Origin: Linnemannia elongata | Lineage: Eukaryota; Mortierellomycota; Mortierellomycetes; Mortierellales; Mortierellaceae | Direction: 5' to 3' | Length of the DNA: 64,000 nt | NCBI GenBank assembly: GCA_036320915.1 | Contig: JAXBDG010000016.1 | Coordinates: 186,001-250,000, forward strand | Shown: one piece after another, positions 27,002 to 51,873 of the stretch | Layout: the number at the start of each line of letters is the position of its first letter | How positions within the stretch are numbered: position 1 is the first letter of the stretch | The notes under the pieces: model-generated | Database searches by the model: none | What the model was told of the DNA's origin: nothing | The model's input: the letters and a program-made list of their open reading frames with translations, nothing else | Made by a program: the position numbers and the translations under genes

Positions 27002-27009
27002 TATAAAAA
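27002..27009 (+). promoter_or_regulatory. TATA box of OPT copy 1
   Basis: TATAAAAA, 128 bp before the ATG at 27130, followed by the CT-rich leader (27055-27125). Confidence 0.7.
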
Positions 27010-27129: not shown

Positions 27130-29492
27130 ATGAGCGACAAGCAGGAATACACTGCTGACAAAGTTTTCATCGACGAGAAGGTCGATGATGACCACGCCTC
27201 CATCATCCTCGATGAGGAAGAGAACTCTCCCATCCCCGAGGTTGCTGCCATCGTATCCAACAAGGATGAACCAGGCCTGCCTGTCATGACTTTCCGCTTC
27301 TGGGTCATGGCTGTGCTTTTCTCTTGCCTCCTTTCGTTCTTCAACCAATTCTTGTAAGTCACGCTTGCATTTCCCAATTCTGTTCAGTGTCAGGCCAACA
27401 CCTACACAAGACACGGCCACAACTTCTTTTCTTATCGTGTTTTTATTATCTTCTGAAATATAGCTGGTTCCGTTCCCACCCCATGACCCTCTCAACCTTG
27501 GTCATTCAGCTTATTTCCTACCCCTTCGGAAAGTTCATGGCTCGTGTCCTCCCCGCTGGCCCCCTCAACCCTGGCCCCTTCAATATCAAGGAGCACGTCT
27601 TGATCGCTCTTACCGCCAACTGCGCTGGTGGTACCGCCTACGCCGTTGATATTACCGTCATCCAGAAAGTCTTCTACAAGCAGGATTTCGGTTTCCTTGC
27701 CAACTTTTTCCTCATTCTCACCACCCAGATGTTGGGTTTCGGTATGGCTGGTGTCCTCCGTCGTTACCTTGTCTACCCCGCCGCTATGATCTGGCCCGCC
27801 AACTTGGTCCAGGTCGCCATGTTCAACACCCTCCACAAGGATGAGGATCTCCTCCCTGGCCAGTGGACCCGTTTCAAGTTCTTCTGTGTTGCCACCCTTT
27901 GCATGTTCTTCTATCAGTGGATCCCTGGATTCATCTTCCCCGTCGTCTCCTCGATTGCTTGGGTCTGCTGGATTGATCCCAAGAACCACGTTCTCTCCCA
28001 GGTCGGAGGAGCCAACGGTCTTGGTGTTGGAGCCATTTCCCTCGACTGGAACAACATTGTTTCCTTCTTGGGATCACCTCTGGTTGTTCCATGGTGGGCT
28101 CAGGTCAACATTGCTCTGGGTTTTTTCCTCATTGCCTGGGTCATGGTCCCCATCGCCTACTACACCAACCTGTGGGATGCTCAGCGTTTCCCTATCCTCA
28201 CCTCCAAGCTCTTCACGACCGATGGTGATAAATATCCGGTTATCAGCGTTCTTGATCCAGCTACCGCATCTTTGTCACAGGAAGGTTACAATAAGGCTGG
28301 ACCTCTCCGTATCGCGACCTTCTTCGCTCTCACCTACGGTATCGGTTTTGCTGGCCTCACCTCGATGATAACCCATACCTGGTTGTACCATCGCCACAAG
28401 TTGGTTGCTCAATGGAAGCAGTCTCGCACCCAGTCTGAGGATATTCATCACAAGTTGATGCAGGCCTACCCTGAGGTCCCCGACTGGTGGTACGCTACCT
28501 TGTTCGTTGGTATGACCGCTCTTGCCATCTTCACCTGTCAGTACTACGGATACATGCCCTGGTGGGCCGTTCTTTTGGCCATCCTTCTGGCTGTCGTTTT
28601 TGCTCTCCCCGTCGGTCTCATTCAAGCCTTGACCAACCAGCAACCCGGCCTCAACATCATCACTGAGTATGTCATCGGTTATATCCTCCCCGGTCAACCC
28701 ATCCCCAACGTTACGTTCAAGACCCTCGGTTACATTTCCATGGCACAAGCCATGACCTTCACCTCGGATCTCAAGCTCGGTCACTACATGAAGGTCCCCC
28801 CACGCGCCATGTTCTGGGCCCAGCTCCTCGGCACATTCATCGCCGGTCTCGTCAACTTGCTCACCGCCAACTGGCTCTTGAACTCTCAGAAGGACATCTG
28901 CGAAGGCTCCAAGGAATTTGGATGCCCCCACGCCAACACCTTCTACTCAGCCTCTGTCATCTGGGGAGTCATTGCTCCCAACCTGATGTTCGGTCCTACT
29001 TCCATCTACAACGCCATCAACTTCTTCTTCCTCATCGGTTTCGTCCTCCCCATCCCATTCTACTTCCTCAAGAAGGCATTCCCTAACACCTGGTTCGACT
29101 ATGTCCACATCCCTGTCTTGTTGGCCGCCACCGGTATGATGCCTCCCGCACAAGCCTACCACTACACCAACTGGTTGGTTCTCGGCTTTGCCTTCCAGTT
29201 CTTTGCCCGTCGTTACCGCTCCGAGTGGCATTTGCGGTTCACTTATGTCATGTCTGCTGCCTTCGATTCCGGCGTCGCCTTCTTCGGACTCCTTTCTTTC
29301 TTTATTTTTGGTATCCGTGAGGTTACGATGCCTATCTGGTGGGGTAACCCAGAAGCGGATATTTGCCGTCTGGATACGTACCCCCTGATGGCTCCTAAGG
29401 GTGGAAAGGTCGATCCTTGGGCTCCCAATCCGGAGGCCGAGGATGCACCTCAGTACGTTTTCCCCAAGCCTTACGTCCCCTTCAAGGGTTGA
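27130..29492 (+). CDS. Oligopeptide transporter (OPT family), array copy 1
   Basis: A proton-coupled importer of small peptides, many-pass (about 12-16 helices), expected in the plasma membrane. Exons 27130-27353 and 27464-29492, 750 aa. The start has context CACCATGAG. The N-terminal 60 residues are acidic and cytosolic, ending in ENSPIPEVAAIVSNKDEP and LPVMTFRFWVM, a typical OPT lead-in. The family motifs are NPGPFNIKEH (110-119) and KVPPR (518-522, the KIPPR motif). Other landmarks are LVVPWWAQVNIALGFF, the QSRTQSEDIHHKLMQAYPEVPDWWY loop and TNQQPGLNIITEYVIGYILP. A variable loop spans about 317-356. It resembles ISP4/OPT1-type fungal peptide transporters; the exact substrate cannot be told. 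AATAAA at 29532-29537. It shares 89 identical bases (28035-28123) with copy 2. Confidence 0.95.
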
Positions 29493-30162
29493 ATAAATTG
29501 ATGAGGACCGAAGCATTGCATACCAAAACTTAATAAACATAATACGCTTCAACGTTACTCACATGTTAAAGCACCCGATGTTACTTTATTGTTCTGCTGT
29601 TGTTGCCTTCTCTGCTAAACTACATGAACAAATGAGGATTGTTAGCACTGGTTGTACTTGTGGCCCCCCCCCTTTTTTTTTTGTCTTGGGGAGTCGTTGT
29701 CTATATCTACGTCTTCATCATCGTCCAAGTCCCTGAACATGTGCTCGTTTTTGTTGCCCTCAATGACGACAATGGTGTGCAAGGGTGTCAAGAGAGGGGG
29801 GGGGGAGGCGAGATCACAAACAACTAAAATGTAAGGATTTGATAGGTTGAACGTAGAGGAATGGGAGGATACATAAGGAAGATGGTGGTCCCAAAAAGAG
29901 ACGAGGGAGGTAAAATGAAAATTCGCATAAGAATAAAAAAAAAGTAAAAAAAAAGAGGAGTAAATGGATGGATACAAAAGATGGAGAAGGGTTGTGAGTG
30001 TCTTTTATAGAGAAGCTCGAGGAGGAGTAGCATTGTGAGTTGAAGTGGGTAGATTTGATTCGGGTGCCGCGGTACCGTGGCCGAAGGACCGAAGTAATGA
30101 ATAGAGACGATAGGAGACGAACAACGACGTATAACGGATCGCAGAACCGTAGACGAGGACGT

Positions 30163-30363
30163 CGTATCCGGATACGCGAAGTGGACGTGGCAACAGCTAT
30201 AGGTATGGAAGTCGTATCCGTAACAGTATATACAATGTTGCACATAGGCATGGAAGCAGCATCCGAACTATGAAGGAGGTCATAACCACAGCCACAGATC
30301 ATGGAAGCAGTATCCGCGGTTTATGGCACAAAGAAAAGAAAGTAAAGGTGGAAGCTGCTTCCG
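30163..30363. repeat. Spaced dyad repeat, GGA-N7-TCC type
   Basis: A palindrome CGTATCCGGATACG (30163-30176) is followed by four related words at 30207-30220 (GGAAGTCGTATCCG), 30252-30265 (GGAAGCAGCATCCG), 30303-30316 (GGAAGCAGTATCCG) and 30350-30363 (GGAAGCTGCTTCCG). Spacing is regular, 44-51 bp. The last is a near-perfect dyad. It could be a degenerate minisatellite or a cluster of sites for a dimeric regulator. Confidence 0.6.
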
Positions 30364-31350
30364 ATAAACGCAGAAGAATAAGATTAACGAATCAGAATGC
30401 AAGAAAATGCTTGGTGGTCGCACAGACACATTCATGCCCGTGGACCCATTCTTCGCTCGCACATAGACAAAAGAAAAGAAGTTCGGTTGTATCTGAAGCA
30501 TATTAGGTAGTTAGATGAGTAGCAAAAAAAGTAGTAGGGTACTTTGAAAATCGTCGGTGACTAAGATGGGCTCTTCTTGCGAACAGTGCCAACCATACCA
30601 CACCTCTCTCACCCACCCTAAACCATTTTTTGTTTTGGATATTGGTGCTTCAGTCGAACCAAAATGCGGACGACGCTCATTCAAAACGAGACGTTCAGAA
30701 AGGCAACATGCCGACCAAAGAAGGAGATCATGAACCCATCAATTGTCTATCTAGCACCAATTTTTGAGTCGTTACCATTCTCTTAACGGCACTGGCTGTG
30801 ACTTTGCTCCGAGACGTGTGTACTTTTTGTTTGTTCCCCTTCTACACCTATCAGCAGTGCGTGTTTCTGACCTATCCATGCTAGTAGCGCGCTTTCATTC
30901 ACCCCACGTTTGTTTTCTTTCGATGTGTCGAGGAAGAAAAATCTCATTCTACTTCTTTCTGGTTACTTTAAGGTAATTCGCTAGCTCGCGTCACTCTACT
31001 ACTGCATTCGGCAAAGTTATACACTCACACACCAAGGCTCATGCCACCTTTTGCGGTCAGCCCACTCAATGAGTCCCTGGCAATGAAGAGAATATATCGG
31101 CATTTTTATTCTATGTTGCCACTGAATCTGAGGATGGGATGGAGAGAAACAAGGGAGCGCGAACGAGAAAAAAAGTAGTAGGATTTGAGCTGATAGAGAT
31201 ATGACAAGAGTGAATACACAGTGGCAAGAAGCGAGACGAGCAGGCGAGGTGATTAATTGAACTTGAGGGAGAGACACACCGAAGTACAATTGATCAGAGA
31301 CGTCAATTCTGTGTCAAAATCGTGAGACTGATAGCCTTGACCCTGAGACA

Positions 31351-31396
31351 TGATCAACACTTATTCAGATACCCAACGGAATCCCCTTCCGGTGTG
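31351..31396 (+). promoter_or_regulatory. Shared upstream element of the OPT array (copy 2)
   Basis: Begins TGATCAACACT and continues through ACCCAACGGAATCC to CTTCCGGTGTG. Contains CGG-N9-CCG, the geometry of a zinc-cluster (Zn2Cys6) regulator site. Related sequence lies upstream of the other copies (25471-25506, 36189-36228, 43543-43563, 48102-48130 and, degenerate, 39778-39799). Function is inference. Confidence 0.4.
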
Positions 31397-32282
31397 TTGC
31401 TAAAGACCATTGCAGGCATTCCTGCTAATATTTTACGAAAATAACAACGAGAATCAATGCGTGGGTAAGGAATGAATGATCTGTAAAAAGTGAGTGAGGA
31501 GGTCGTGGAAGGGTGTCTGAAGTTCCAAAACAAATCCTTCGGATGCTGCTGCCGAGCAAACTTACCGAGGATCAAACTATTGTTTCTTTTGTTTGTGTGC
31601 GTGTGTGTAACATGTCCTTCCTTACTTTGCCAATCATTCGTCAACATTTCGCATCAAAATCGATTTTTGACTTTTGGACTTGCTTCCATTTCTTTTGTAC
31701 ATGTATATGTATATTCGTAGGGTGGGCCAGGTGCTGGTTCATTTGCCTCTTTTAATTTTCCATCCACGAGCATTGAGCTAGAAAAACACTACAATGAAAG
31801 GCAAAAGCCCAGGCGGTTCTCACAAGCATCCTAACCCTCACACTCGCCGTCCTTCTACGCCCATAGCCGATTTCTTTTTGTGGTGCTTCCTCGGATTCCA
31901 CATCCAAATAACTCTATTTCTTGTGTTCATGCCCAGAATTAAAAATGGAAGGTACGTTGTTCTCCCCATGGTCATGCAGCCAATGTCAACCTCGTTCTGG
32001 CTAAAGGACAGATACAGACGATGCATGTTGTGTTTGAATTCTGCTGTGTCTTCAAACTGAATGCTCGAGAGCGAGAGGAAACCAATGTTGCGTCTTCGAA
32101 TCGAGGAAGACATTGAATAGCAAAGGTATTGTGTCTCCAAAGCGGCTATGAGAGAGATAAACAAAGTTTTATATCGTTAAGTTGACAAAGATCAACAACA
32201 AAGATACTGCTCCTTCTCTGTACCTGTCAGAACTGACTAGGGAGCCCTCTCCTATGATCAGCGCCCCTTAGGACCAAACTGC

Positions 32283-32290
32283 TATAAAAG
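32283..32290 (+). promoter_or_regulatory. TATA box of OPT copy 2
   Basis: TATAAAAG, 146 bp before the ATG at 32429. Confidence 0.7.
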
Positions 32291-32428
32291 ACATCCGTCA
32301 CCCCGATTATTTTTATCCCTTGTCTACGGCCGCTCTTCCCCTTCCTCACCTAACAAGACCCTGTCACCCCCTCCACTCCCCCTCTTCACTTCGACTTCCT
32401 TCCTATCACCCCCACTTGCGTTCCTACT

Positions 32429-34803
32429 ATGACAGACCACAAGCAGGAATACGCTGCTGACAAAGACTTCATCGACGAAAAGATCGATGCCGAGCGCGCA
32501 TCCATCGTCCTCGAGGAGGATGAGAATTCTCCCATCCCCGAGGTTGCCGCCATCGTCTCTAACAAAGATGAGCCCAGCCTCCCCGTCATGACCTTCCGTT
32601 ATTGGGTCATGTCTGTCCTCTTCTGCTGTCTCCTCTCCTTCTTCAACCAGTTCTTGTAAGTCCAACATTTTCTTGCTCACACTTTTCACATTCATCCATG
32701 AAGCATTTTCTCAAGGAAATTATTCTCACCGTTCATTGATTTACACTTTCCTCCATATTGAATCATAGCTGGTTCCGCACTAAGCCCATGACCCTCTCCA
32801 CCTTGGTCATTCAGCTGATCTCTTATCCCTTCGGAAAGTTCATGGCTAAGGTTCTCCCCGCTGGTCCCCTCAACCCTGGTCCCTTCAATATCAAAGAGCA
32901 CGTTTTGATCTCTCTGACTGCCAACTGCGCTGGTGGTATTGCTTACGCCGTCGACATCACCGTCATCCAAAAGATCTTCTATTATCAGGACCACGGCTTT
33001 CTCGCCAACTGGCTTCTTATTATTACCACCCAGACCTTGGGTTTTGGAATGGCTGGTGTCCTCCGTCGTTACCTCGTTTACCCCTCTGCCATGATCTGGC
33101 CTGCTAACTTGGTCCAAGTCGCCATGTTCAACACTCTTCACAAGGACGAGGATCTCCTCCCTGGCCAGTGGTCCCGTTTCAAGTTCTTCTGTGTTGCCAC
33201 CCTTTGCATGTTCTTCTATCAGTGGATCCCTGGTTTCATCTTCCCCGTCATCTCATCCATTGCTTGGGTCTGCTGGATCGACCCCAAGAACCACGTCCTC
33301 TCCCAGATCGGTGGAGCCAACGGTCTGGGTGTCGGGGCTATTTCCCTCGACTGGAACAACATTGTTTCCTTCTTGGGATCACCTCTGGTTGTTCCATGGT
33401 GGGCTCAGGTCAACATTGCTCTGGGTTTCTTCATCGTCGCCTGGGTCATGGTCCCCATTGCATACTACAACAACTTGTGGGAAGCCCATCGATTCCCTAT
33501 CCTCAACGGCAAACTCTTCACGATCAATGGTGATGAATATCCTGTTCTCAGCGTTCTTGACCAGGAGACCTTGTCCTTGTCCCAGACTGGTTATGATGCC
33601 GCTGGACCCCTCCGTATCTCCACCTTCTTCGCTCTCACCTACGGTATTGGTTTCGCCGGTCTCACCGCGATGATCACGCACACCTGGTTGTACCATCGCC
33701 ACAAGTTGGTTGCTCAATGGAAACAATCTCGCACCCAGTCTGAGGATATCCACCATAAGTTGATGCAGGCCTACCCTGAGGTTCCAGATTGGTGGTACGC
33801 TACCTTGTTCGTTGGTATGACCGTCCTTGCCATCTTCACCTGTCAGTACTACAAATACATGCCTTGGTGGGCTGTCCTCTTGGCTATCCTCATCGCCGTT
33901 GTCTTTTCTCTCCCCGTCGGTCTCATCCAGGCGTTGACCAACCAGCAGCCCGGCCTCAACATCATCACTGAGTACGTTATCGGTTACATTCTCCCAGGAG
34001 AGCCCATTCCCAACGTCACGTTCAAGACCCTTGGTTACATCTCCATGAGTCAGGCTATGCTTTTCACCTCGGATCTTAAGCTCGGCCATTATATGAAGGT
34101 CCCTCCCAAGGCCATGTTCTGGGCCCAGCTTATGGGTACTATCATCGCCGGAACCATCAACTTGGTCACCGCCAACTGGCTCATGGGCTCACAGAAGGAC
34201 ATCTGCACCAAGAAGAACAAAGAGTTCGGCTGCCCCTCGGCCAACATCTTCTACTCTGCCTCTGTCATTTGGGGAGTCATTGCTCCCAACCTGATGTTCG
34301 GTCCTACTTCGATGTACAACGCCGTCAACTACTTTTTCGTGCTCGGTTTTGTCCTCCCCCTCCCCTTCTACTTTATCAAGAAGGCCTTCCCCAACACCTG
34401 GTTGGACTATGTCCACATCCCTGTCATGTTGTCCGCGACTGGAATGATGCCCCCAGCTCAAGCCTACCACTACACCAACTGGTTGGTTCTTGGCTTCGCC
34501 TTCCAATTCTTTGCTCGTCGTTACCGCTCCGAGTGGCACTTGCGATTCACCTACGTCTTGTCTGCTGCCTTCGACTCTGGTGTTGCCTTTATGGGTCTTC
34601 TCTCCTTCTTCATTTTCAGTATGAATAGCATCAAGATGCCTAAATGGTGGGGCAACCCCGAGGCCGAGATTTGTCGGTTGGACTCGTACCCCCTGATGGC
34701 GCCCAAGAGCGGACTGCCCGATCCTTGGGCCCCAAATCCGGATGCCGAGGATGCACCTCAGTACGTTTTCCCCAAGGCCTACGTCCCCTACATCCCCAAG
34801 TAA
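32429..34803 (+). CDS. Oligopeptide transporter (OPT family), array copy 2
   Basis: Exons 32429-32655 and 32769-34803, 753 aa. Same architecture as copy 1: acidic N-terminus, NPGPFNIKEH, the DIHHKLMQAYPEVPDWWY loop and TNQQPGLNIITEY. It differs in carrying KVPPK instead of KVPPR in the KIPPR-type motif, a change it shares only with copy 5, and QDHGFLANWLL rather than QDFGFLANF. Its sequence is a mosaic: 89 bases identical to copy 1 (33340-33428) and 153 bases identical to copy 5 (33649-33801), including synonymous sites, which points to gene conversion. Variable-loop text: GKLFTINGDEYPVLSVLDQE. AATAAA at 34935-34940. Expected plasma-membrane peptide importer. Confidence 0.95.
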
Positions 34804-36967: not shown

Positions 36968-36975
36968 TATAAAAA
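36968..36975 (+). promoter_or_regulatory. TATA box of OPT copy 3
   Basis: TATAAAAA, 130 bp before the ATG at 37098. Confidence 0.7.
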
Positions 36976-37097
36976 GAGATCCACGCCTTGCTCCTTTTCC
37001 TCATTGTCCTCCGACTGCCCTTCCCTCCTCTCATCCGAACGACCGTCTCCTCTTCACCTCCTTCTTTCTTCCGCCCCCTCCCCCTACTTCCAACACC

Positions 37098-39456
37098 ATG
37101 ACCAGTCACAAGGAAGAATACCTTGCTGATAAACTTGAGGACGAAAAGGTCGACGCCGAGCGCGCATCCCTCACCCTCGAGGAAGAGGAGAACTCTCCCA
37201 TTCCCGAGGTCGCTGCCATCGTCTCCAACAAAGATGAACCCAACCTTCCCGTCATGACTTTCCGTTACTGGGTCATGGGTATCCTATTTGCCTGTCTGCT
37301 CTCTTTCTTCAACCAGTTCTTGTAAGCCTACCGTGCCTGTTCCCAGCAGAGTATTTTTCTTGAGCCAGGACCGTACGTTCAAAAACACACGCAAGACATT
37401 TTTCCACACAATTGATGCATCTATTTTATTACTTAGCTGGTTCCGTACCCACCCCATGACCCTCTCGACCTTGGTCATTCAGCTTATTTCCTACCCCTTC
37501 GGTCGCTTCATGGCTCGTGTCCTCCCTGAGGGTCCTCTCAACCCCGGCCCTTTCAACATCAAGGAGCACGTCCTAGTCGCCCTAACCGCCAACTGCGCCG
37601 GTGGAATTGCCTATGCTGTCGATATCACTGTTATCCAAAAGGTCTTCTATGAGCAAGATTTCGGCTTCCTTGCCAACTTCTTCCTCATTCTCACCACCCA
37701 GACCTTGGGTTTCGGTATGGCTGGTGTCCTCCGTCGTTACCTTGTCTACCCTGCTGCCATGATCTGGCCTGCCAATTTGGTCCAAGTGGCCATGTTCAAC
37801 ACCCTCCACAAGGAAGAGGAACTTCTCCCTGGTCAATGGTCTCGCTTCAAGTTCTTTTGCATTGCCACTCTCTGTATGTTCATCTACCAATGGATTCCTG
37901 GTTTCTTCTTCCCTGTCCTCTCATCCATCGCCTGGGTCTGCTGGATCGATCCCAAGAACCCTGTTCTTTCGCAAGTTGGCGGTGCCCAAGGTCTTGGTGT
38001 CGGTGCCATCTCCTTGAACTGGAACAACATCGTCTCATACTTGGGGTCTCCTTTAGTCGTCCCCTGGTGGGCTCAGGTCAACATTGCCTTGGGTTTCTTC
38101 CTCATCGCCTGGGTAATGGTTCCCATCGCCTATTATACCAACCTCTGGGATGCCCAGCGATTTCCCATCCTTACCGCTGAGCTCTTCAGGACGGATGGTG
38201 ATACCTACGATGTCGATAATGTTCTTCGAGATGGTACCTTGTACAAGGAGGGCTATGCCAACGAGGGACCTCTCCGCATCGCCACTTTCTTTGCCCTTAC
38301 CTACGGTATTGGTTTTGCTGGCCTATCTTCCATGATCACCCACACCTGGTTGTACCATCGCCACAAGCTGGTTGCTCAATGGAAGCAGTCTCGCACCCAG
38401 TCTGAAGATATCCATCATAAGTTGATGCAGGCCTACCCTGAGGTCCCCGACTGGTGGTACGCTGCCTTGTTCGTTGGAATGACCGCCATCTCCGTCTTCA
38501 CCTGCGAGTACTACGGCTACATGCCCTGGTGGGCTGTCTTCTTGGCTATCCTTCTGGCCGTCATCTTCGCCCTTCCTGTCGGTCTCATCCAAGCCTTGAC
38601 CAACCAGCAACCCGGCCTTAATATCATTACGGAGTATGTCATCGGTTATATCTTGCCCGGAGAGCCCATTCCAAACGTCACCTTCAAGACCCTCGGTTAC
38701 ATCTCCATGACTCAGGCTATGCTTTTCACCTCGGATCTAAAGCTCGGCCATTATATGAAAGTTCCCCCTCGTGCCATGTTCTGGGCCCAGCTCATGGGCA
38801 CCACCATTGCCGGTCTCATAAACCTGATCACCGCCAACTGGCTATTGAACACCCAGCCCGACATCTGCACCAAGAGGAGCAAGGAATTCAAATGCCACTT
38901 CGCCAACACCTTCTACTCAGCCTCTGTCATTTGGGGAGTCATCGCCCCAAACCTCATGTTTGGTCCCACCTCCATCTACAACGCCATCAACTACTTCTTC
39001 CTCATCGGTTTCGTCCTCCCCATCCCATTCTATTTCATCAAGAGAGCATACCCCAATTCCTGGTTGGACTTTGTCCACATCCCCGTCTTGTTGGCCGCTA
39101 CCGGTATGATGCCACCGGCAAAAGCCTACCACTACACCAACTGGCTCGCCCTTGGATTCGCCTTCCAGTTCTTTGCTCGTCGTTACCACTCAGAGTGGCA
39201 CTTGCGATTCACCTACGTCTTGTCCGCTGCCTTTGATTCCGGCGTAGCCTTCATGGGTCTACTCTCGTTCTTCGTTTTCGGTATTCGTGGTGTGAGCTTC
39301 CCTGCATGGTGGGGTAACCCAGACCAGGACATCTGTCGGTTGGACTCGTACCCCCTGATGCAACCCAAGGGCGGACTGCCTGATCCTTGGGGCGCCTCCA
39401 TTCAAGACAAGTATGTCTTCTCCAAGCCTTATGTCCCTCCCGCCCCGCACGAGTAG
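37098..39456 (+). CDS. Oligopeptide transporter (OPT family), array copy 3
   Basis: Exons 37098-37321 and 37437-39456, 747 aa, the shortest copy. The N-terminus is shortened (YLADKLEDEKVDAERASLTL). NPGPFNIKEH and KVPPR are present. It is the most diverged in the variable loop (AELFRTDGDTYDVDNVLRDG, two residues shorter than copy 1) and at the C-terminus, which lacks the PNPEAEDAPQY stretch and reads GASIQDKYVFSKPYVPPAPHE. These changes could mean a different peptide preference; that is inference. The coding frame is intact and no catalytic-type residue is missing. Expected proton-coupled peptide importer in the plasma membrane. Confidence 0.95.
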
Positions 39457-40352
39457 ATTAAGAGTACAATTTGTTATCAGTATCCTCAGCCGCCTTTGTG
39501 GTCCTTCTTATAATAAGCAGTTTATTTTTTTGGCGTTATTTTTGTTGCTTGTTGCATTGGATTTTATTTTTCGCTCCTCTGTTTGTTCCGAATCGCGCCT
39601 TGCGCGGGATATATGAATTCTTCTATACTGAACGTCCTTCGCTCATACGCCCTTGCATTCACTTGTGGGAAAGCAGAATAGAAGAGACACAGCCCATATT
39701 GTTGATATGTGTCGATTAGGGCAATGAACGAGAGAAAAGCGGCAAAGTACATCGGATAGAAGTCGTGGATGTTCAATCTTGGATCTAATGAGATCCAAGT
39801 TTGAACAAGCGACAAAAAAATACCTTGATAGATATCACAGAGAGTTTGTGAAAGAGTATTGGTGTCCACAAGACCCTCGGATTGGACGGAGGGTGCATCC
39901 GACTATTTTTTTTCTTTATTTGACTGAGTTTGCATATATGTGTAACATCATCTGCCATTGCTTGCGTTCGATTCGTCAATATTATTTCCTACCTCGGATG
40001 GCTGTTCCATGCTCTACGGGTCATGGACCCGAAATTTTGCTCTTTTTGGCGTTGGAGATTATTTTCTGTATTACCGTGCGGTATACAACAGCAGTTGTTC
40101 TTTCCCTTGATTATTGTAGTACTCGGATATGATACCCGACAGCCTGTACTTTTTCTTTTTACCTTTTGCTTACTACAGGTCTCTCATAATTGCAAGAAGT
40201 CGAAAATGCCGAATTCAAAGCCCTCTAGTCAGGCGTTGTTATGTTTTACACCTTCAATCGTTGTATGAAAGAGAGAAAGAGAGAAAGCGAGTGGGTACCG
40301 TGTCTTTCACGCACCGGAAGCAAAACAGAGGAATGTATTATGTTCATTTTCC
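39457..40352. other. Intergenic between OPT copies 3 and 4
   Basis: Holds the 36-bp hairpin at 39771-39806 and sequence related to the region upstream of copy 5. The minus-strand frame at 39564-39869 has a counterpart at 43318-43719, but I see no proof that either is translated. Confidence 0.5.
39771..39806. other. Hairpin: 16-bp arms with a 4-base loop
   Basis: GTTCAATCTTGGATCT, loop AATG, then AGATCCAAGTTTGAAC. Fifteen of sixteen pairs match. It sits where the shared upstream element should be for copy 4, and may be that element turned into a dyad. Confidence 0.75.
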
Positions 40353-40359
40353 TATAAAT
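40353..40359 (+). promoter_or_regulatory. TATA box of OPT copy 4
   Basis: TATAAAT, 188 bp before the ATG at 40541. Slightly weaker and more distant than in the other copies. Confidence 0.55.
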
Positions 40360-40499
40360 GACATCCTTCTTCCTACTTCTGTTTTCTCCTCGTCCACAGT
40401 TGTCCTTCGTTCCTCTCATACAACAAGACCTTTCTCCTTCTCCTCTTCTCTCTCCCTCTCCCTTCTAATCTTTATATCTTCCGTCCCCCACCTCTATCA

Positions 40500-40538
40500 C
40501 CTCCACCTCTATCACCTTCACCTCTATCACCTTCACCA
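40500..40538 (+). repeat. Short tandem repeat in the leader of OPT copy 4
   Basis: CTCCACCTCTATCA and CTTCACCTCTATCA variants, a unit of about 15 bp, repeat just before the ATG at 40541. Confidence 0.7.
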
Positions 40539-40540
40539 AC

Positions 40541-42921
40541 ATGACTGACCACAAGCAAGAGTATCTTGCTGAAAAAGACTTCATCGACGAAAAGGTCGAT
40601 GCTGAGCGCGCATCCATCGTCCTCGAGGAGGAGGAGAACTCACCTATCCCCGAGGTCGCTGCCATCGTCTCCAACAAGGATGAACCCAACCTCCCAGTCA
40701 TGACATTCCGTTTCTGGGTCATGGCCGTCCTTTTCTCCTGTCTCCTTTCCTTCTTCAACCAGTTCTTGTAAGTTCAAAATTTCTCGTATCCAAAATCTCG
40801 TCATAAACACTATGCTAACAAAGAACAAAATAAACCAAGCTGGATACCGGTTCTAAGCATTCATATCATTACTTTCTACCATTGATTTATAGTTGGTTCC
40901 GCACCAACCCCATGACCCTCTCAACCTTGGTCATTCAGCTGATCTCTTATCCCTTCGGAAAGTTCATGGCCCGTGTCCTCCCCGCTGGTCCCCTCAACCC
41001 TGGCCCCTTCAACATCAAGGAACACGTTTTGATCGCCTTGACCGCCAACTGCGCTGGTGGTACTGCCTACGCTGTCGACATCACTGTCATCCAAAAGGTC
41101 TTCTATGGCCAGGATCACGGCTTCCTCGCCAACTGGCTTCTTATTCTTACCACTCAGACCTTGGGTTTCGGTATGGCTGGTGTCCTCCGTCGCTACCTCG
41201 TTTACCCTGCCGCTATGATCTGGCCCGCCAACTTGGTCCAGGTCGCCATGTTCAACACTCTTCACAAGGAGGAAGACCTCCTCCCCGGCCAATGGTCTCG
41301 CTTCAAGTTCTTCTGCGTTGCCACTGTTGTAATGTTTTTCTACCAGTGGATCCCTGGTTTCATCTTCCCCGTCCTCTCCTCTATTGTTTGGGTTTGCTGG
41401 ATCGATCCCAAGAACCCTGTTCTCTCGCAGATTGGAGGTCGCAAAGGAATGGGTCTCGGTGCCATCTCTCTCGACTGGAACGAAATCGTCGGATACTTGG
41501 GATCTCCCTTGGTTGTTCCATGGTGGGCTCAAGTCAACATTGCCTTGGGTTTCTTCCTTCTCGCCTGGGTCCTGGTCCCTATTGCTTATTACACCAACCT
41601 TTGGGATGCCCAGAGATTCCCAATGTACGGTAGTGCTCTCTTCAAGAGCAACGGTGATCCTTACCCCGTTCTCAGCGTTCTTAACAAGGAGACCTTGACC
41701 TTGTCCCACACTGGTTATGAAGCAGCTGGACCTCTCCGTATCGCCACCTTCTTCTCTCTTACCTATGGTGTCGGTTTCGCCTGTCTTACCGCGATGATCA
41801 CCCATACCTGGTTGTATCATCGTCACAAGCTCGTCGCCCAGTGGAAGCAGTCTCGCACCCAGTCTGAGGATATTCATCACAAGCTCATGCAGGCCTACCC
41901 TGAGGTCCCCGACTGGTGGTACGCTGCCTTGTTCGTTGGAATGACCGCTGTTGGCATCTTCACCTGTCAGTACTACGGATACATGCCCTGGTGGGCCGTT
42001 CTTTTGGCCATCCTTCTGGCTGTCGTCTTTTCTCTCCCCGTCGGTCTCATCCAAGCCTTGACTAACCAACAACCTGGCCTCAACATCATTACGGAGTATA
42101 CCATCGGTTACATCTTGCCCGGCGATCCCATTGCCAACGTCACCTTCAAGACCCTCGGTTACATCACCATGGCTCAGGCTATGACCTTCACCTCGGATCT
42201 CAAACTCGGCCACTACATGAAAGTTCCCCCTCGTGCCATGTTCTGGGCTCAGCTTCTCGGTACCGTTATCGCCGGAACTATCAACCTGGTCACTGCCAAC
42301 TGGCTCTTGAACTCCCAGAAGGACATTTGCACCAAGAACGAGGTCTTCGGATGTCCAAACGCCAACACCTTCTACTCTGCCTCTGTCATCTGGGGAGTCA
42401 TTGCTCCCAACCTGATGTTCGGTCCTACTTCGATGTACAACGCCATCAACTACTTCTTCCTCATCGGTCTCGTCCTTCCCATCCCCTTCTACTTCCTCAA
42501 GAAGGCCTACCCCAACACTATGTTGGACTATGTCCACGTCCCTGTCATGTTGTCTGCAACCGGTATGATGCCCCCCGCATACCCCTTCCACTATGCCAAC
42601 TGGCTGACCCTCGGTTTTGCCTTCCAGTTCTTTGCTCGCCGCTACCGGTCTGAATGGCACTTGCGTTTTACCTATGTCATGTCTGCTGCCTTCGACTCTG
42701 GCGTCGCCTTTATGGGTCTCCTATCGTTCTTCATTTTCAGTCTCAACAACATCGAGATGCCTCACTGGTGGGGTAATCCCGAACGGCCGATTTGCCGCCT
42801 GGATAAATACCCATTGATGCAACCCGCGAGTGGCCTTGTTGACCCTTGGGCGATTGATCCCAAAGCCGATGACGCCCCCATGTACCAGTTCTCTAAGCCT
42901 TACGTCCCCCCCAATCCCTGA
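40541..42921 (+). CDS. Oligopeptide transporter (OPT family), array copy 4
   Basis: Exons 40541-40767 and 40893-42921, 751 aa. NPGPFNIKEH and KVPPR are present. It is the sister of copy 5: both have QDHGFLANWLL, FPMYG/FPMFG before the variable loop (SALFKSNGDPYPVLSVLNKE here), GDPIANVTFKTLGYI, AYP in place of AQAY after GMMPP, and a C-terminus ending PMYQFSKPYVP. Their upstream regions are also alignable, so they arose by duplication of gene plus promoter. The acceptor gives TT/T rather than TT/C for the split Phe codon, still Phe. AATAAA at 43002-43007. Expected plasma-membrane peptide importer. Confidence 0.95.
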
Positions 42922-44047
42922 GTGGCCTTCTTTTCCACTGAAGGGAGGATATGATACTCAGAACTCTTTTTTCTTAGACAGCATTAATATGAATCGTTGT
43001 GAATAAAAAACACATCCTTTGATTTTCATTTTTTTTTTCACTGTTGAAATTGCTTGTGACTTCCGAATTGTCCGTGTCCACAATCGAAAGATAACCACAG
43101 GGTTAGAGGAAGTGTTGTTTGTCAATGGTATCCAGATCAATTAATGGTCTGATTTAGTCGTGTTGACTCTGGCGGGTGCAACGACGCCTTCAAGAAAGAA
43201 CGAAGCATCACTTTTGATCTGTTTGAGCGAACGCTGATACTACTGTAATAACTATGGCGTGGGATGTGAATGACGAGTATAAGACTTCAGGGAAATGGAT
43301 TGAGATCGACAATGGGATTAAGCACGGATCACCTTCGGGGTATAGCATAGAAACATGATGTACCATAGATATATTGGTGCATCTATAATAAACATCCTTT
43401 CATCACATGCACTTGCATTCATTTGTACGAAAGCGGCACGGAAGAGGATCGGAGCATATAATCTATGTCTGTTGATCAGTGTGACGAACGTGAGAAAAGT
43501 GGCAAGGTGCATTCGGGTTGAGGGCCGTGAAGGGTCCATCCCGACACCAATGGGCTTCCTTCCATCCATCTCAGGAGAGATTCTACATGCGCGTCGTCTT
43601 ACCAGGAACAGGCACCAAAAGCAAAATACCTCAGCAAAGATCGTAACGCATGTTTGTGGAACAACATCCTTGTCGACCGACAACAACACACAAGGCCCTC
43701 GGAAGGCACCAAGGATCATCCGACCATTCCTTTCTTTATTTTTCTGTGTCCGTGTAGGTATTTAACATCATCCGCCATTGATATCATGATTCGTTGCTAT
43801 GCTCGTACACATTGCGGATGGTGCATCCTTTTCTACGGGCCATAGACCCGAATGTCGCCTCGTTTGGGTGTTACCAAATCTTTTTACCTTATAAAATACT
43901 ACAGCCCACGGGATCTTTGTCCTTGATTTTTGTTAGACTCGGATTCGGTACCGAGATTCCTCATTATTCTTATTTTTTGGTCTTCCTCGCTGGCAACTTA
44001 TCCTCCCATATTCGCTTGTTCCAAGAGAGAGAAAGAAAAGGCAGAGT

Positions 44048-44091
<44 letters not shown>

Positions 44092-44156
44092 GGCGCTGCG
44101 TCTTCCATGCACAGCAACCAAGACGAGCAAGTCTTTCCTTCTGTGTTCATTTTTTC
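42922..44156. other. Intergenic between OPT copies 4 and 5
   Basis: Homologous to the region upstream of copy 4 over several hundred bases, for example TGCATTCATTTGT at 43411 and the GGCAAGGTGCAT region at 43500, and again at 43770-43950. Carries the shared element (43543-43563) and a GA microsatellite (44053-44089). No gene supported. Confidence 0.5.
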
Positions 44157-44164
44157 TATAAAAG
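44157..44164 (+). promoter_or_regulatory. TATA box of OPT copy 5
   Basis: TATAAAAG, 173 bp before the ATG at 44330. Confidence 0.7.
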
Positions 44165-44329
44165 CCGTTCTATCCCTACTTTCTTTTTGTCCCTCGTCCA
44201 CAGTTGTCCTTCCATCCTCCTCATACAATAAGAACCTTTCTCCCTTTCTCTTCACTCCCTTCACCCTCCCGCAAATACATTCCGTCTCCTTCCCTATTGC
44301 CACGTCCCAGCAATTCCATCACCATCACC

Positions 44330-46688
44330 ATGACCGACCACAAGCAAGAGTACCTTGCTGAAAAAGACTTCATTGACGAGAAAGTTGATGCTGAGCGATC
44401 CTCCATCGCTCTCGAGGAGGAGGAGAACTCTCCCATTCCTGAGGTCGCCGCCATTGTCTCCAACAAGGATGAACCCAATCTGCCCGTTATGACCTTCCGT
44501 TTCTGGGTCATGGCTATTTTCTTCTCCTGCCTCCTTTCCTTTTTCAACCAGTTCTTGTAAGTCCAGTAACTTTTCTGTATATGCAACCCTTTAGAAATTC
44601 ACAAATGATCCAACAGAGATCTTATTCACCTTTCATTCCCTTGAATGTTTGCTTCATAGCTGGTTCCGCACCCACCCCTTGTCTCTCAACTCCTTGGTCA
44701 TTCAACTGGTCTCCTACCCCCTCGGAAAGTTCATGGCCCGTGTCCTCCCCGTTGGTCCTCTCAATCCCGGTCCCTTCAACATCAAGGAGCACGTCCTCGT
44801 CGCCTTATCCGCCAACTGTGCCGCTTCTCTCGCCTATGCCGTCGATATCACCGTCATCCAAAAGGTCTTCTACGGCCAGGACCACGGCTTCCTTGCCAAC
44901 TGGCTTCTTGTTCTCACCACTCAGACCTTGGGTTTCGGTATGGCTGGTGTTCTCCGTCGCTACCTCGTTTACCCTGCCGCTATGATCTGGCCCGCCAACT
45001 TGGTCCAGGTTGCCCTGTTCAACACTCTTCACAAGGACGAGGATCTCCAGCCCGGCCAATGGTCCCGCTACAAGTTCTTCTGCGTAGCCACTCTCTGCAT
45101 GTTCTTGTACCAGTGGATCCCTGGCGTCATCTTCCCCGTTCTCACTTACTTTGCTTGGGTTTGCTGGATTGACCCCAAGAACCCTATTCTCTCACATATT
45201 GGAGGTCCCCAAGGTATGGGTATCGGCGTCATCTCTCTCGACTGGAACGAAATCGTCTCGTACTTGGGATCTCCCTTGGTCGTCCCATGGTGGGCTCAGG
45301 TCAACATTGCTCTGGGCTTCTTCCTCATCGCCTGGGTCATGGTCCCCATCGCCTATTACACCAACCTCTGGGATGCCCAGCGATTCCCAATGTTCGGTAG
45401 TGGCCTCTTCAAAAGAAATGGCGATCCCTACCCCGTTCTCAGCGTTCTGAATAAGGAGAACTTGTCCTTGTCCCAGACTGGTTATGATGCCGCTGGACCC
45501 CTCCGTATCACCACTTTCTTTGTTCTCACCTACGGTATCGGTTTCGCCGGTCTCACCGCGATGATCACGCACACCTGGTTGTACCATCGCCACAAGTTGG
45601 TTGCTCAATGGAAACAATCTCGCACCCAGTCTGAGGATATCCACCATAAGTTGATGCAGGCCTACCCTGAGGTTCCAGATTGGTGGTACGCTGCCTTGTT
45701 CGTTGGCATGACCGCAGTCGGTATCTTCACCTGCCAATTTTATGGGTACATGCCTTGGTGGGCCGTCTTCTTAGCCATCCTCATCGCCGTTGTCTTTGCT
45801 CTCCCTGTCGGTCTCATCCAAGCCTTGACTAACCAGCAGCCCGGTCTCAACATCATTACGGAGTATGTCATCGGTTATATCTTGCCTGGCGATCCCATCG
45901 CCAACGTCACCTTCAAGACCCTCGGTTACATCTCCATGGCCCAGGCTATGACCTTCACTTCGGATCTTAAGCTCGGTCACTACATGAAGGTCCCTCCCAA
46001 GGCCATGTTCTGGGCTCAGCTTCTCGGTACCGTTATCGCCGGAACCATCAACTTGGCCACCGCCAACTGGCTCATGAACACTCAGCCCGGCATTTGCACC
46101 ACAAACAAGGATTTCGGTTGCCCTCACGCCAACACCTTCTACTCTGCCTCTGTCATCTGGGGAGTCATTGCTCCCAACCTGATGTTCGGTCCTACTTCGA
46201 TGTACAACGCCATCAACTACTTCTTCCTCATCGGCTTCCTCCTCCCCCTCCCCTTCTACTTCCTCAAGAAGGCGTACCCCAACACTTGGTTGGACTATGT
46301 CCACGTCCCTGTCATGTTGTCCGCGACCAGTATGATGCCCCCCGCATACCCCCACCACTACACCAACTGGTTGGCTCTCGGTTTCATCTTCCAGTTCTTT
46401 GCTCGCCGCTACCGCTCCGAGTGGCATTTGCGCTACACGTACGTCTTGTCTGCCGCCTTCGATTCCGGTGTCGCCTTCTTTTCTATCGTCTCCTTCGTCA
46501 TCTTGACTTCGAACAACCTCAAGATGCCTACTTGGTGGGGTAATCCAGAACATCATATCTGCCGCCTGGATGGCTACCCTTTGATGCAGCCTGAGAGCGG
46601 CAAGCCTGATCCTTGGGCGATTGATCCCGAAGCTGATGACGCCCCCATGTACCAGTTCTCTAAGCCTTACGTCCCCTTCAAGCCCTAA
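44330..46688 (+). CDS. Oligopeptide transporter (OPT family), array copy 5
   Basis: Exons 44330-44556 and 44660-46688, 751 aa. The start is the ATG in ATCACCATGACC; an in-frame upstream ATG at 44204 lies at the TATA-proximal leader and is not used in the other copies. NPGPFNIKEH is present; the second motif is KVPPK, as in copy 2. The early membrane segment reads LSANCAASLAY where the others have LTANCAGG(T/I)AY, a change in a conserved glycine pair. The end of the last helices is also divergent (FFSIVSFVILTSNNLKMP). Sister of copy 4, but with a 153-base tract (45540-45692) identical to copy 2. Variable loop: SGLFKRNGDPYPVLSVLNKE. AATAAA at 46791-46796. Confidence 0.95.
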
Positions 46689-47263
46689 GCTGTCTTTTGT
46701 TTGATGGGAGGGTACCAAACCAAAACTCGTTTTTTAGTCTGCAATAATAAGAGTCGAGTCTCCTGGTTTTTTTTTGTTTCCTCCTTTGCTAATAAAATAA
46801 TTGATCGGTCAATATGATACTTTCATCGTAAAAATTGCTTTTCTGCTTTCAAATTCTTCAAGTCCTTGTCTGCGATCCTATGGTCCTTGGGGCACAGCAC
46901 ATATGAGGAATGGGGACGAGAAGAACGTTATTTACTCTAGTTTCATTCAGTGATACTCATTACCATAATAGTCTTGTCTGACTCGTTGACTTCACTCGTG
47001 GTCTGATGGCACAGTGACACCCTCGACACGGGCGAAGCATTGGCTTGGTCAGTTTGATCACATAGCGATGGTTTAGGCTGCCGTCATGTGCGTTGTCTTA
47101 CTCGGACAAGATCGTCGGTCAGGTAAGGTTTTTTTTTTTGTTTGTAAGAAATTTGCAAAAAGTACAAAGGTTACATCTAAACTGGGAAAAAACAGTTAAC
47201 AGAGAAAAACAGGAAAGACCAAGCAAAATAAATACAGAGAGATAAGAAAATAAAATACAGGTT

Positions 47264-47430
47264 AGGTGGGGAAGTTGTTGTTGACAGGGGGGTGGTCGAC
47301 TGAGGGTGGGGGTTCACGCTCCTCGTTCTGGCGCTTCTTCTCAGCCAACTGAGCGCGAACTTGGGTGATGGCCAAATCCACCACGGCAAGGACCATGCGA
47401 GTGTCGGTCAGGTAAAGCTCTTGTCATACT
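47264..47430 (-). pseudogene. Orphan C-terminal coding fragment
   Basis: Read on the minus strand this gives about 54 residues, QELYLTDTRMVLAVVDLAIT followed by a charged stretch (RAQLAEKKRQNEEREPPP) and a stop, with protein-like codon use. An in-frame TGA stands directly upstream and I found no sound acceptor in phase. A basic frame upstream (47431-47550, AYQLARLWKRAKK) might be another piece of the same lost gene. Likely a relic left by a duplication in this array. The family is not recognised. Confidence 0.3.
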
Positions 47431-48101
47431 CCACTGAATAGTCACGTGACAGAAACCTTGCCTTTTCTTGGCTCGTTTCCACAAGCGCGCGAGCTGGTAG
47501 GCCTGGGCTCTATTGTTATTCCTCTCTTCCCTCTCCGACACATACTTCATGACGACGAAGGATACTTCAAGCCAAGGCCCCAGAGTAAAGAGGCTGCTCG
47601 ACCTTTTTTTCTATTCATCCCGTTCTTTTCTTGATCCCATCGCCATCACCTCCATCTTTTTTTTCTTCACCATCCCTCACTCTGATTCCCCTTATCCAGT
47701 TAGAGATTCACTCACATCAAGACTCAACCATGGTTGACATTGTTGAATGAGCAGACGCCGGCATCACCCTTTGTTCTTTTGTGCAGTTGTCGTGTCCTTA
47801 TTGGCCTCAACACACACAATCCCCACCGTTCAACCTTATCTGAGACCTTGCCATTGAGAACATCCGAACTATCAGTCCCTTGTTTCTTTTTTGTCGGACA
47901 ATTTCAGGAGAAAAAAGGGAAGGTACGAAATGTTTAAAATGTCCATGTGCTCTGCCGCTTTGAGCATGACGGCGCTAGTTAGAGAGTAGAAAAGAGTAAA
48001 TAGGCACGCCGGAAAGAAGGAGAATGCTAACAAAAGCCGAAAAATGGATTAAGAAGAATAACGTACAGTCTGCATTCGGAGTATGATTTGGCGCAAGGGT
48101 G

Positions 48102-48130
48102 CTCAGTCCAATAGGGTTCGTTCCTGTATC
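48102..48130 (+). promoter_or_regulatory. Shared upstream element of the OPT array (copy 6)
   Basis: CTCAGTCCAATAGGGTTCG followed by TTCCTGTATC. Matches the CCAAT-GG-nTTC-nnTTCC core found upstream of copies 1, 2, 3 and 5. Lies about 600 bp before the ATG. Confidence 0.35.
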
Positions 48131-48590
48131 ACCATGAGTCTTCGGATCGCCTTCCAGCATTGAAGATTACGATTCGTTTTTAGGCTAAAGATTCGACAAA
48201 GAGCATGTATCATGGTTCAATAAGTGACATACAACTATTTGGTTTATCGGATCCATGCCTTTTCATTCGCCAGATTGTCTCTTTCACATTACGGATGCTG
48301 CTTCCAGGGTTCACAACAGTGTATGCGACTGATATCCGCCGCACTAGGTACGCCTTTGATGCGCCGATGCGGCAGCCTCCTTCTTTGCCTTTTTCAGGTC
48401 TTCTTCAATGAAAATAACAAAAAGAGGGAAAAAAAGTTAAAATGGTACTTCCCCATGTACTCCATACTACTCTCTTCCACGCATTGATTTTTTGTTTTTC
48501 GGGCTTCGTTACCGAGGGACGATTTCATGTCCTTAGATGGTCACTTCTATCCTTTTATGGTTCCCTTCTTGATCGCAGAGTCCGATTCAC

Positions 48591-48598
48591 TATAAAAG
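48591..48598 (+). promoter_or_regulatory. TATA box of OPT copy 6
   Basis: TATAAAAG, 124 bp before the ATG at 48715, followed by GCCGCCCGTCCCCC and a CT-rich leader. Confidence 0.7.
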
Positions 48599-48714
48599 CC
48601 GCCCGTCCCCCGCATCGTTTTTTTCCTTGTCCACGGTTGTCCTTCCTTTCTCTCCTGCTCTCTTCTCCCCGCCTCCCCCTTGCTTCTTCACTTTCTACAC
48701 CCACACCCATCATA

Positions 48715-51075
48715 ATGACCGAGAAGCAAGAGTACCTTGCTGAAAAAGACATCATTGACGAGAAAGTGGATGCTGAGCGCTCCTCCATCGTTCTCGATGA
48801 GGAGGAGAACTCTCCCATCCCCGAGGTCGCAGCTATCGTCTCCAACAAAGATGAACCCGGCCTGCCTGTCATGACCTTCCGTTACTGGGTCATGGCCATC
48901 CTCTTTTCTTGCCTCCTTTCCTTCTTCAACCAGTTCTTGTAAGTCTAGCATTTCCTATTCCCGCACTATCCTCCCTAACACCATGCCAAAATCCCCCCTC
49001 TACATCTTTTCTCATCTTTCATGCTGTTTTCATCTTTTCTCCATAGCTGGTTCCGCAGCAAGCCTATGACCCTCTCAACCTTGGTCATCCAGCTTCTCTC
49101 TTACCCTTTCGGGCGCTTTATGGCTCGTGTCCTCCCTGAAGGTCCTCTCAACCCTGGTCCCTTCAACATCAAGGAGCACGTCCTCGTTGCCTTGACCGCC
49201 AACTGCGCTGGTGGTACGGCCTACGCTGTCGACATTACTGTTATCCAAAAGGTCTTCTATGGTCAAGATTTCGGTTTCCTTGCCAACTTTCTCCTCATTC
49301 TCTGCACTCAGATGTTGGGTTTCGGCATGGCTGGTGTCCTCCGTCGTTACCTTGTCTACCCCGCTGCCATGATCTGGCCTGCCAATTTGGTCCAAGTGGC
49401 TATGTTCAACACCCTCCATAAGGAAGAGGAACTTCTCCCTGGTCAATGGTCTCGTTTCAAATTCTTTATTGTTGCAACCATTGCCATGTTCATTTACCAG
49501 TGGATCCCTGGCTTCATCTTCCCCGTCGTCTCCTCCATTGCTTGGGTCTGCTGGATTGATCCCAAGAACCACGTCCTCTCCCAGATCGGTGGAGCCAACG
49601 GTCTCGGTGTCGGTGCTATCTCTCTTGACTGGAACAACATCGTCGCTTACTTGGGTTCCCCCTTGGTTGTTCCCTGGTGGGCCCAAGTCAACATTGCCTT
49701 GGGTTTCTTCCTCATCGCTTGGGTCTTGGCCCCCATCGCCTACTACACCAACTTGTGGGATGCCCAACGCTTCCCCATCCTCACTGCCAAGCTCTTCACT
49801 GTTGATGGTGCCGACTACCCCGTCCTCAGCGTCCTCGATCCAACTACCGCATCTTTGTCCCAGGCTGGTTATGACAAGGCCGGACCTCTTCGCATCTCGA
49901 CCTTCTTTGCTCTTGCATATGGTATCGGTTTTGCTGGTCTCTCTGCCATGATCACCCATACCTGGTTGTACCATCGTCACAAGTTAGTTGCCCAGTGGAA
50001 GCAGTCGCGTACTCAGACTGAGGACATCCACCACAAGCTTATGCAGGCCTACCCTGAGGTCCCCGACTGGTGGTACGCTGCCTTGTTCGTTGGCATGACC
50101 GCTCTTGCCAACTTCACCTGCCAGTACTACGGCTACATGCCCTGGTGGGCCGTTCTTTTGGCCATCCTTTTGGCCGTCGTGTTTGCTCTCCCTGTCGGTC
50201 TCATCCAAGCCTTGACCAATCAGCAACCCGGCCTCAATATCATTACCGAGTACGTTATCGGTTACATCCTCCCTGGTAAACCCATCCCCAATGTCACCTT
50301 TAAGACCCTCGGTTACATCTCCATGGCCCAAGCCATGACCTTCACTTCGGATCTCAAGCTCGGTCACTACATGAAGGTCCCCCCACGTGCCATGTTCTGG
50401 GCCCAGCTCCTCGGCACCTTCATCGCCGGTCTCATCAACCTGGTCACCGCCAATTGGCTATTGAACACCCAGCCCAAGATCTGCAACGGCTCCAAGGAAT
50501 TTGGATGCCCCCACGCCAACACCTTCTACTCAGCCTCTGTCATCTGGGGAGTCATTGCTCCTAACCTGATGTTCGGTCCTACTTCCATCTACAACGCCAT
50601 CAACTTCTTCTTCCTCATCGGTTTCCTCCTCCCGATCCCCTTCTTCTGGTTCAAGAAATGGTTCCCCAACACCTGGGTTGACAACATCCATATCCCTGTC
50701 ATGTTGGCTGCCACCGGTATGATGCCCCCAGCCCAGGCCTACAACTACACCAACTGGTTGGCTGTCGGTTTCGCATTCCAGTTCTTTGCCCGTCGCTACC
50801 ACTCTGAATGGCATTTGCGGTTCACCTACGTCATGTCTGCCGCTTTCGATTCTGGTGTTGCATTTTATGGACTCCTTTCGTTCTTCATCTTTAGCATCAA
50901 CAATATCAAGATGCCTTTCTGGTGGGGCAACCCCAAGACCGATATCTGTCGTCTGGATGGGTATCCTCTGATGTCGCCTAAGGGTGGCATGGTCGACCCT
51001 TGGGCCCCTAATCCGGAGGCCGAAGATGCACCCCAGTACAACTTCCCCAAGGCTTACGTCCCACCCAAGTTGTAA
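48715..51075 (+). CDS. Oligopeptide transporter (OPT family), array copy 6
   Basis: Exons 48715-48938 and 49047-51075, 750 aa. The start is ATAATGACCGAG; an upstream in-frame ATG at 48442 precedes the TATA box and is not used. NPGPFNIKEH and KVPPR are present. It is nearest to copy 1: QDFGFLANF, variable loop AKLFTVDGADYPVLSVLDPTTA, PNPEAEDAPQY at the C-terminus. It is distinctive in the segment IPFFWFKKWFPNTWVDNIHI, where other copies have an FYF(L/I)K(K/R)A(Y/F)P-type sequence. Last of the array and followed by mobile-element-like debris. AATAAA at 51136-51141. Expected plasma-membrane peptide importer. Confidence 0.95.
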
Positions 51076-51370: not shown

Positions 51371-51873
51371 AGGGCACTGTGCGACTTCCTCAATACGGAT
51401 TACACCCATCGACGTGAATAGCGCCTCATCGGAACCCTTTTCGTCCTTGTATGGCATTATTATGCGTTTTTTGCGTTCCAGAAGAAGTTGCATGTGGGAA
51501 TGGCGTACTTGGATGTGGTGTGCGATTGAACAGAGGAGTGAGAGCAAACGCGAGGGAAGATGCTCCATTAGCAACCTTGTTTTGCGTGTGAGCTTAGTGA
51601 GTGATGAAGATTGGGTGTGGGAGTGGTGGCTGTGAAAAAGGTGTGGAAATATCCCTTTATTTCTTTGCATAATTAATAGAGCATCTTCCCTCGCGTTCGC
51701 TCTCACTCCTTGTTCAACCGCACATCACATCCAGGTACGCCATTCCCGCATGCAACTTCTTCTGGAACGCGAAAAACGCATAATAATGCCATACAAGGAC
51801 GAAAAGGGTTCCGATGAGGCGCTAGTCACGTCGATGGGTGTAATCCATGTTGAGGAAGCCGTACAGTGCCCTT
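51371..51873. repeat. Large inverted repeat, about 200-bp arms
   Basis: Arm 1 (51371-51570) and arm 2 (51675-51873) are reverse complements at roughly 90 percent identity by eye, separated by about 105 bp. Both arms encode the same stretch in the outward sense: MQLLLER-KRIIMPYKDEK, then GSDEAL-TSMGVI--EE--QCP. The element is therefore two copies of one coding fragment facing opposite ways. No terminal target duplication was identified. A transcript through it would form a long double-stranded hairpin. Confidence 0.8.

Follow-up and report, generated by a model that had tools for sequence, protein, structure and literature searches.

Why are six genes of a single transporter family kept side by side within 24 kb of the genome of Linnemannia elongata? 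The question arises from a stretch of 64,000 nucleotides (G000:C8:186001-250000, here called the window, from which all positions are counted) on contig C8 of a 51.1-Mb assembly comprising 32 contigs. Six intact genes of the oligopeptide transporter (OPT) family, encoding proteins of 747–753 aa, were found head to tail on the plus strand between positions 27130 and 51075. We consider it probable that they form a tandem array of six working small-oligopeptide (peptide transport, PT-type) OPT genes that vary in substrate preference or in expression and do not simply add to the dosage of one transporter. The genes are:

27130..29492, plus strand: OPT copy 1, 750 aa; exons 27130-27353 and 27464-29492
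32429..34803, plus strand: OPT copy 2, 753 aa; exons 32429-32655 and 32769-34803
37098..39456, plus strand: OPT copy 3, 747 aa; exons 37098-37321 and 37437-39456
40541..42921, plus strand: OPT copy 4, 751 aa; exons 40541-40767 and 40893-42921
44330..46688, plus strand: OPT copy 5, 751 aa; exons 44330-44556 and 44660-46688; apparently the faster-evolving sister of copy 4
48715..51075, plus strand: OPT copy 6, 750 aa; exons 48715-48938 and 49047-51075

All six spliced copies are open over their full length without an internal stop, and each is interrupted by a single GT..AG intron of 103–125 nt that splits the same codon. A TATAAA motif starts 124–188 bp 5' of every ATG (at 27002, 32283, 36968, 40353, 44157 and 48591 for copies 1–6), and the 5' leaders, judged by eye, are C/T-rich. 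An earlier note, made from the sequence alone, had described six intact same-strand copies that share gene structure, TATA placement and leader type and show no decay inside the array, and all of this was confirmed. The paralogues are adjacent and on one strand with no unrelated gene between them, one truncated fragment of a long interspersed nuclear element (LINE) in the last spacer apart; the locus is thus a tandem gene array. The protein encoded by copy 6 is identical to a database protein, P0003, labelled Linnemannia elongata.

The family assignment was unequivocal. PF03169 matched all six copies with E-values of at worst 1.9e-171 on the long open frames and 9.8e-171 in a six-frame search, and the matches, which lie in exon 2, ran from profile positions 22–26 to position 622 of 623. 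The NCBIfam equivalog TIGR00727 (ISP4_OPT, "small oligopeptide transporter") was scored for copies 1, 5 and 6 and for the database protein P0007, which is 99.6% identical to copy 4. The cut-off of 438.7 was exceeded in all four sequences: copy 6 (= P0003) reached 657.4 and P0007 646.0, and with exon 2 only, copy 5 reached 586.8 and copy 1 596.6. Copy 6 was modelled with AlphaFold2 (predicted local distance difference test 81.6, predicted template modelling score 0.81). In a Foldseek search with this model the only PDB matches at E <= 0.001 were two entries of barley Yellow stripe 1 (7wst and 7wsr), with an E-value of 3.1e-13 and a template modelling score of 0.74–0.75 by target length, as is expected for an OPT fold in this copy; by sequence, no PDB chain was matched. 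A role in peptide transport is supported by membership in the TIGR00727 family together with the match of the predicted fold. Each copy would most likely be a proton-coupled importer of short peptides in the plasma membrane, with glutathione-like substrates possible.

The six copies differ considerably from each other. Pairwise identity was 80.0–88.8% at the protein level and 79.3–85.9% in coding DNA. In all 15 copy pairs synonymous divergence (dS) was 0.53–0.92 and the ratio of nonsynonymous to synonymous divergence (dN/dS) 0.11–0.17. The six copies are under purifying selection, and the array is real and not recent. The effective number of codons (Nc) of the array copies was 37–41, compared to 47–59 in four neighbouring exons and 29–31 in three relatives on contig C7 (at 413, 419 and 500 kb); indirectly, this codon bias fits real but not maximal expression. 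HGATAR motifs, the GATA sites of nitrogen regulators, were not enriched in the 800 bp upstream of the genes (1, 2, 2, 4, 0 and 1 sites, versus means of 2.6–3.4 in mononucleotide shuffles), and no peptidase was found among the few neighbouring open frames with a Pfam match. To call the locus a peptide-scavenging cluster, as had been suggested, therefore goes beyond the evidence, since the array consists of transporters only.

The history of the array was addressed with a tree of 48 rows, comprising the six copies, five relatives from the same genome and 37 database proteins; incomplete database proteins, as well as many of the 120 listed matches, were left out. The array copies, the relatives at C7:419k, C7:500k and C8:400k and database proteins formed a clade of 24 rows (support 100/100), whose sister contains the gene at C7:413k together with L. 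elongata and Mortierella hygrophila proteins. All labelled database rows within the 24-row clade are from Linnemannia, except P0002 (M. hygrophila) and P0005 (Haplosporangium gracile), two species which NCBI also places in the Mortierellaceae. The tree thereby shows an origin of the array inside a mostly Linnemannia clade, as far as the sampled proteins tell. Copies 4 and 5 join at 100/99, and copy 2 joins this pair at 99/99; the grouping of copies 1 and 6, counterparts included, has 95/86 support, and the position of copy 3 is weak (64/17). Both relationships that had been proposed beforehand, copies 4 and 5 as sisters and copies 1 and 6 as the closest among the rest, were recovered.

Among the matches listed, the closest counterparts were P0001 for copy 1 (94.5%), P0008 for copy 3 (96.5%) and P0007 (AG-77) for copy 4 (99.6%), all three named L. 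elongata, P0004 (L. hyalina) for copy 2 (91.5%) and, itself excluded, P0005 (H. gracile, 92.4%) and P0002 (M. hygrophila, 92.3%) for copy 6. The best match of copy 5 was only P0007 (87.1%). For five of the six copies the nearest relative is thus a counterpart from another strain or species and not a sister copy, and copy 5 is without a counterpart among these matches, which is not the pattern of an array in concerted evolution. The missing counterpart of copy 5 was not used as evidence, as copy 5 is itself unlisted although copy 6 of the same genome is listed. Because copies 2 and 6 have their counterparts in species with other names, the splits of copy 2 from copies 4/5 and of copy 6 from copy 1 predate these species. 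L. schmuckeri and an assembly that bears the label L. elongata have a further array-like OPT type (P0017 and P0018), and P0018 shares a contig of 948,542 bases with counterparts of copies 1 and 3. In the tree, all 11 array-type or C7/C8 relatives from the genome studied here grouped apart from that type.

Exchange between the copies was detected at one place at least:

33649..33801, plus strand: gene-conversion tract in copy 2, 153 nt without a difference from copy 5
45540..45692, plus strand: the matching gene-conversion tract in copy 5

Around this tract the non-neighbouring copies 2 and 5 are identical at 238 of 251 nt (95%), compared to 1623 of 2002 (81%) elsewhere; in the same 251-nt stretch copy 4 is identical to its sister copy 5 at 214 positions. 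A permutation test over all sites flagged six pairs after correction (1-2, 1-4, 1-6, 2-5, 2-6 and 4-5), and in a conversion test on silent codons pair 2-5 alone survived correction, with pairs 1-2, 1-4 and 2-3 nominal. Copies 2 and 5 thus share a gene-conversion tract, and conversion is claimed for this pair alone; general conversion across the array was rejected, since only pair 2-5 was significant in both tests.

The spacers record a second event and a foreign insertion:

39457..40540: spacer 3-4, with three stretches 69–74% alike to spacer 4-5
42922..44329: spacer 4-5, homologue of spacer 3-4
47114..47415 including duplications (element approximately 47127-47402), minus strand: 3' end of a 5'-truncated LINE, recognised by repeat matches and target-site duplication
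47114-47126 and 47403-47415: 13-bp target-site duplications flanking the LINE fragment in spacer 5-6

Spacers 1-2 and 2-3 each match only themselves in the genome, whereas the genomic matches of spacers 3-4 and 4-5 are confined to these two, which also resemble one another (74% over approximately 200 bp). This suggests that the duplication which gave rise to copies 4 and 5 carried its upstream spacer along, in agreement with their position as sisters. Apart from this pair and short promoter stretches, the spacers have diverged beyond recognition. The 12 longest open frames in the spacers had no Pfam match at E <= 0.1, so that no other gene was found between the OPT copies; the previous statement to that effect holds, with the exception of the LINE fragment. 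Repeats matching this fragment occur elsewhere in the genome at 20 or more places, and zf-RVT was found in its genomic relatives, above the cut-off in L027 and below it in L025.

To see the array in the context of its family, all 63 first-look candidates for OPT genes in the genome were scored. This gave 60 matches in about 36 loci (37 by rule, two overlapping ones at C27:792-795 kb being counted as one). The nearest other match on contig C8 is at 400,335 of the contig, approximately 163 kb from the array. This relative at 400 kb (L030, G000:C8:398500-404000) is frame-broken in this strain, whereas P0010 (L. elongata), the related protein in the database, is intact. Smaller clusters are found on C27 (three genes in 9 kb), C29 (three in 12 kb plus two), C7 (four in 90 kb), C23 (three in 37 kb) and also on C1. 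Among the matches listed, neighbouring OPT locus tags recur in other Mortierellaceae, in Gryganskiella (BGZ83_000184/186/187 and BGZ83_006303/006304), Mortierella sp. AM989 (BGX27_006455/006457) and Actinomortierella ambigua (DFQ27_008044/008045), and tandem duplication is therefore common in this transporter family. Probably, an ancestral gene of the C7 type left a copy on contig C8; unequal crossing-over then multiplied that copy, in the case of copies 4 and 5 as a unit of gene plus spacer, and the resulting array was maintained through birth-and-death evolution, with conversion between its members on occasion.

As to why six copies are kept, dosage or a range of peptide substrates had been put forward. 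That the copies are retained since more of one peptide transporter is useful is unlikely, albeit the best of the alternatives. It is in line with six intact copies all under purifying selection, with a codon bias stronger than in the four neighbouring exons, consistent with expression, and with conversion keeping some sequence in common. However, the proteins differ by 11–20% at the dS given above, so the copies have not been kept alike, spacers and promoters have largely diverged, and the three C7 relatives show an even stronger codon bias. Dosage was rejected as first choice on the divergence of proteins and spacers; diversification, that is a range of substrates, fits better, a preference reached via divergence and not via tests of function. 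Mostly neutral birth-and-death, in which duplicates arise often and six are merely not yet lost, is quite improbable: the other OPT clusters in the genome, the adjacent locus tags seen elsewhere in the Mortierellaceae (for example in Gryganskiella) and the frame-broken relative at C8:400 kb would fit it, but six of six copies are intact despite a dS of 0.53–0.92, at a dN/dS of 0.11–0.17, and five have counterparts in other strains or species. A non-peptide role, for example in glutathione or folate uptake, is equally doubtful. Other OPT substrates in fungi include glutathione and folate, and the passages cited report that ScOpt1 carries both glutathione and folates and that single OPTs may do only one (PMC12687453); the best family model, however, is the small-oligopeptide one (TIGR00727). 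An assembly artefact in which copies were falsely repeated is already close to refuted: the copies differ at 14–21% of aligned coding nucleotides, the spacers are unique (1-2 and 2-3) or diverged (3-4 and 4-5), the 51-Mb assembly has only 32 contigs and the database counterparts of copies 1 and 3 lie on one contig of 948,542 bases in an independent assembly.

Thus, copies of differing substrate preference or expression are the reading that we favour as most likely. A more specific and less likely version is that of a diversifying set of importers with distinct substrate or expression roles across Linnemannia and short conversions between them, in which copy 5 gained a new specificity since its split from copy 4. 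With copy 2 as outgroup, copy 5 had 49 unique amino-acid changes and copy 4 only 24 (p 0.003), and with the other outgroups 49/25, 43/25 and 45/26 (p 0.005–0.029), the p-values being uncorrected for the four outgroups; third-position changes were equally frequent (88 vs 92, outgroup copy 2). The copy 5 protein thus appears to evolve approximately twice as fast as that of its sister. Besides the uncorrected p-values, several points speak against functional diversification. The faster change of copy 5 could be relaxed constraint, and of 30 changes found in copy 5 alone among the copies, 16 are in the predicted helices used, about as helix content gives. Likewise, 81 positions are fixed within but differ between the five counterpart groups, and these are no denser in the predicted helices used (38 of 81) than expected from their share of the protein (399 of 750 residues); therefore, a change of substrate is not specifically indicated. 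Finally, proton coupling and substrate would be carried over from yeast OPT relatives, for which proton-coupled uptake of tetra- and pentapeptides is given in the passages cited (PMC7298112).

Two further features were noticed at the locus. An antisense frame of 579 aa is open inside copy 4 (40921-42660, minus strand), and antisense frames are open over 612–615 codons in two C7 OPT relatives. The frame in copy 4 had no Pfam match and was rejected as a gene; within the array it is explained by TTA, CTA and TCA codons being nearly absent. Approximately 300 bp 3' of copy 6 there is an inverted repeat (51371-51570 and 51674-51872) with arms of about 200 nt, 93.5% alike and 103 nt apart, which has no other occurrence in the genome and folds as a long hairpin (z -34.7). 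A selected hairpin RNA was considered and rejected: G.U-yielding transitions numbered 6 on one strand and 5 on the other, and without a strand bias there is no sign of selection on RNA.

Peptide uptake is one route of soil fungi to organic nitrogen. Six intact, diverged paralogues so close together, with counterparts across the genus, are well suited to the question of whether such arrays of transporters serve dosage or range, and of whether substrate-determining pieces pass from copy to copy by conversion. The literature searched, by titles and abstract openings with some passages, contained no paper on this array. Barley Yellow stripe 1 shares the OPT-superfamily fold with the copy 6 model but is a plant protein of the metal-phytosiderophore (YS) branch with 14% identity. 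Like L. elongata, the soil fungi Laccaria bicolor and Paxillus involutus have several OPT groups, those of P. involutus being induced on protein nitrogen; unlike here, these are basidiomycetes, and the passages cited describe no tandem array of such sort (PMC4282482). FOT1-2 of wine yeast are, like the array, tandem fungal peptide transporters with gene conversion, and widened peptide use was shown for FOT, but they are two genes of another family, acquired by horizontal transfer (PMC7298112). The direct precedent is found in Candida auris and relatives, where up to eight OPT genes arose at one locus on chromosome 6 by lineage-specific tandem duplication, spread over 296 kb (PMC6297351), compared to six same-strand genes in 24 kb, separated by nothing more than a LINE fragment, in L. 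elongata. The array is, judged by sequence, a sound example of a kind already known from other fungi, and its copy number and tightness are notable.

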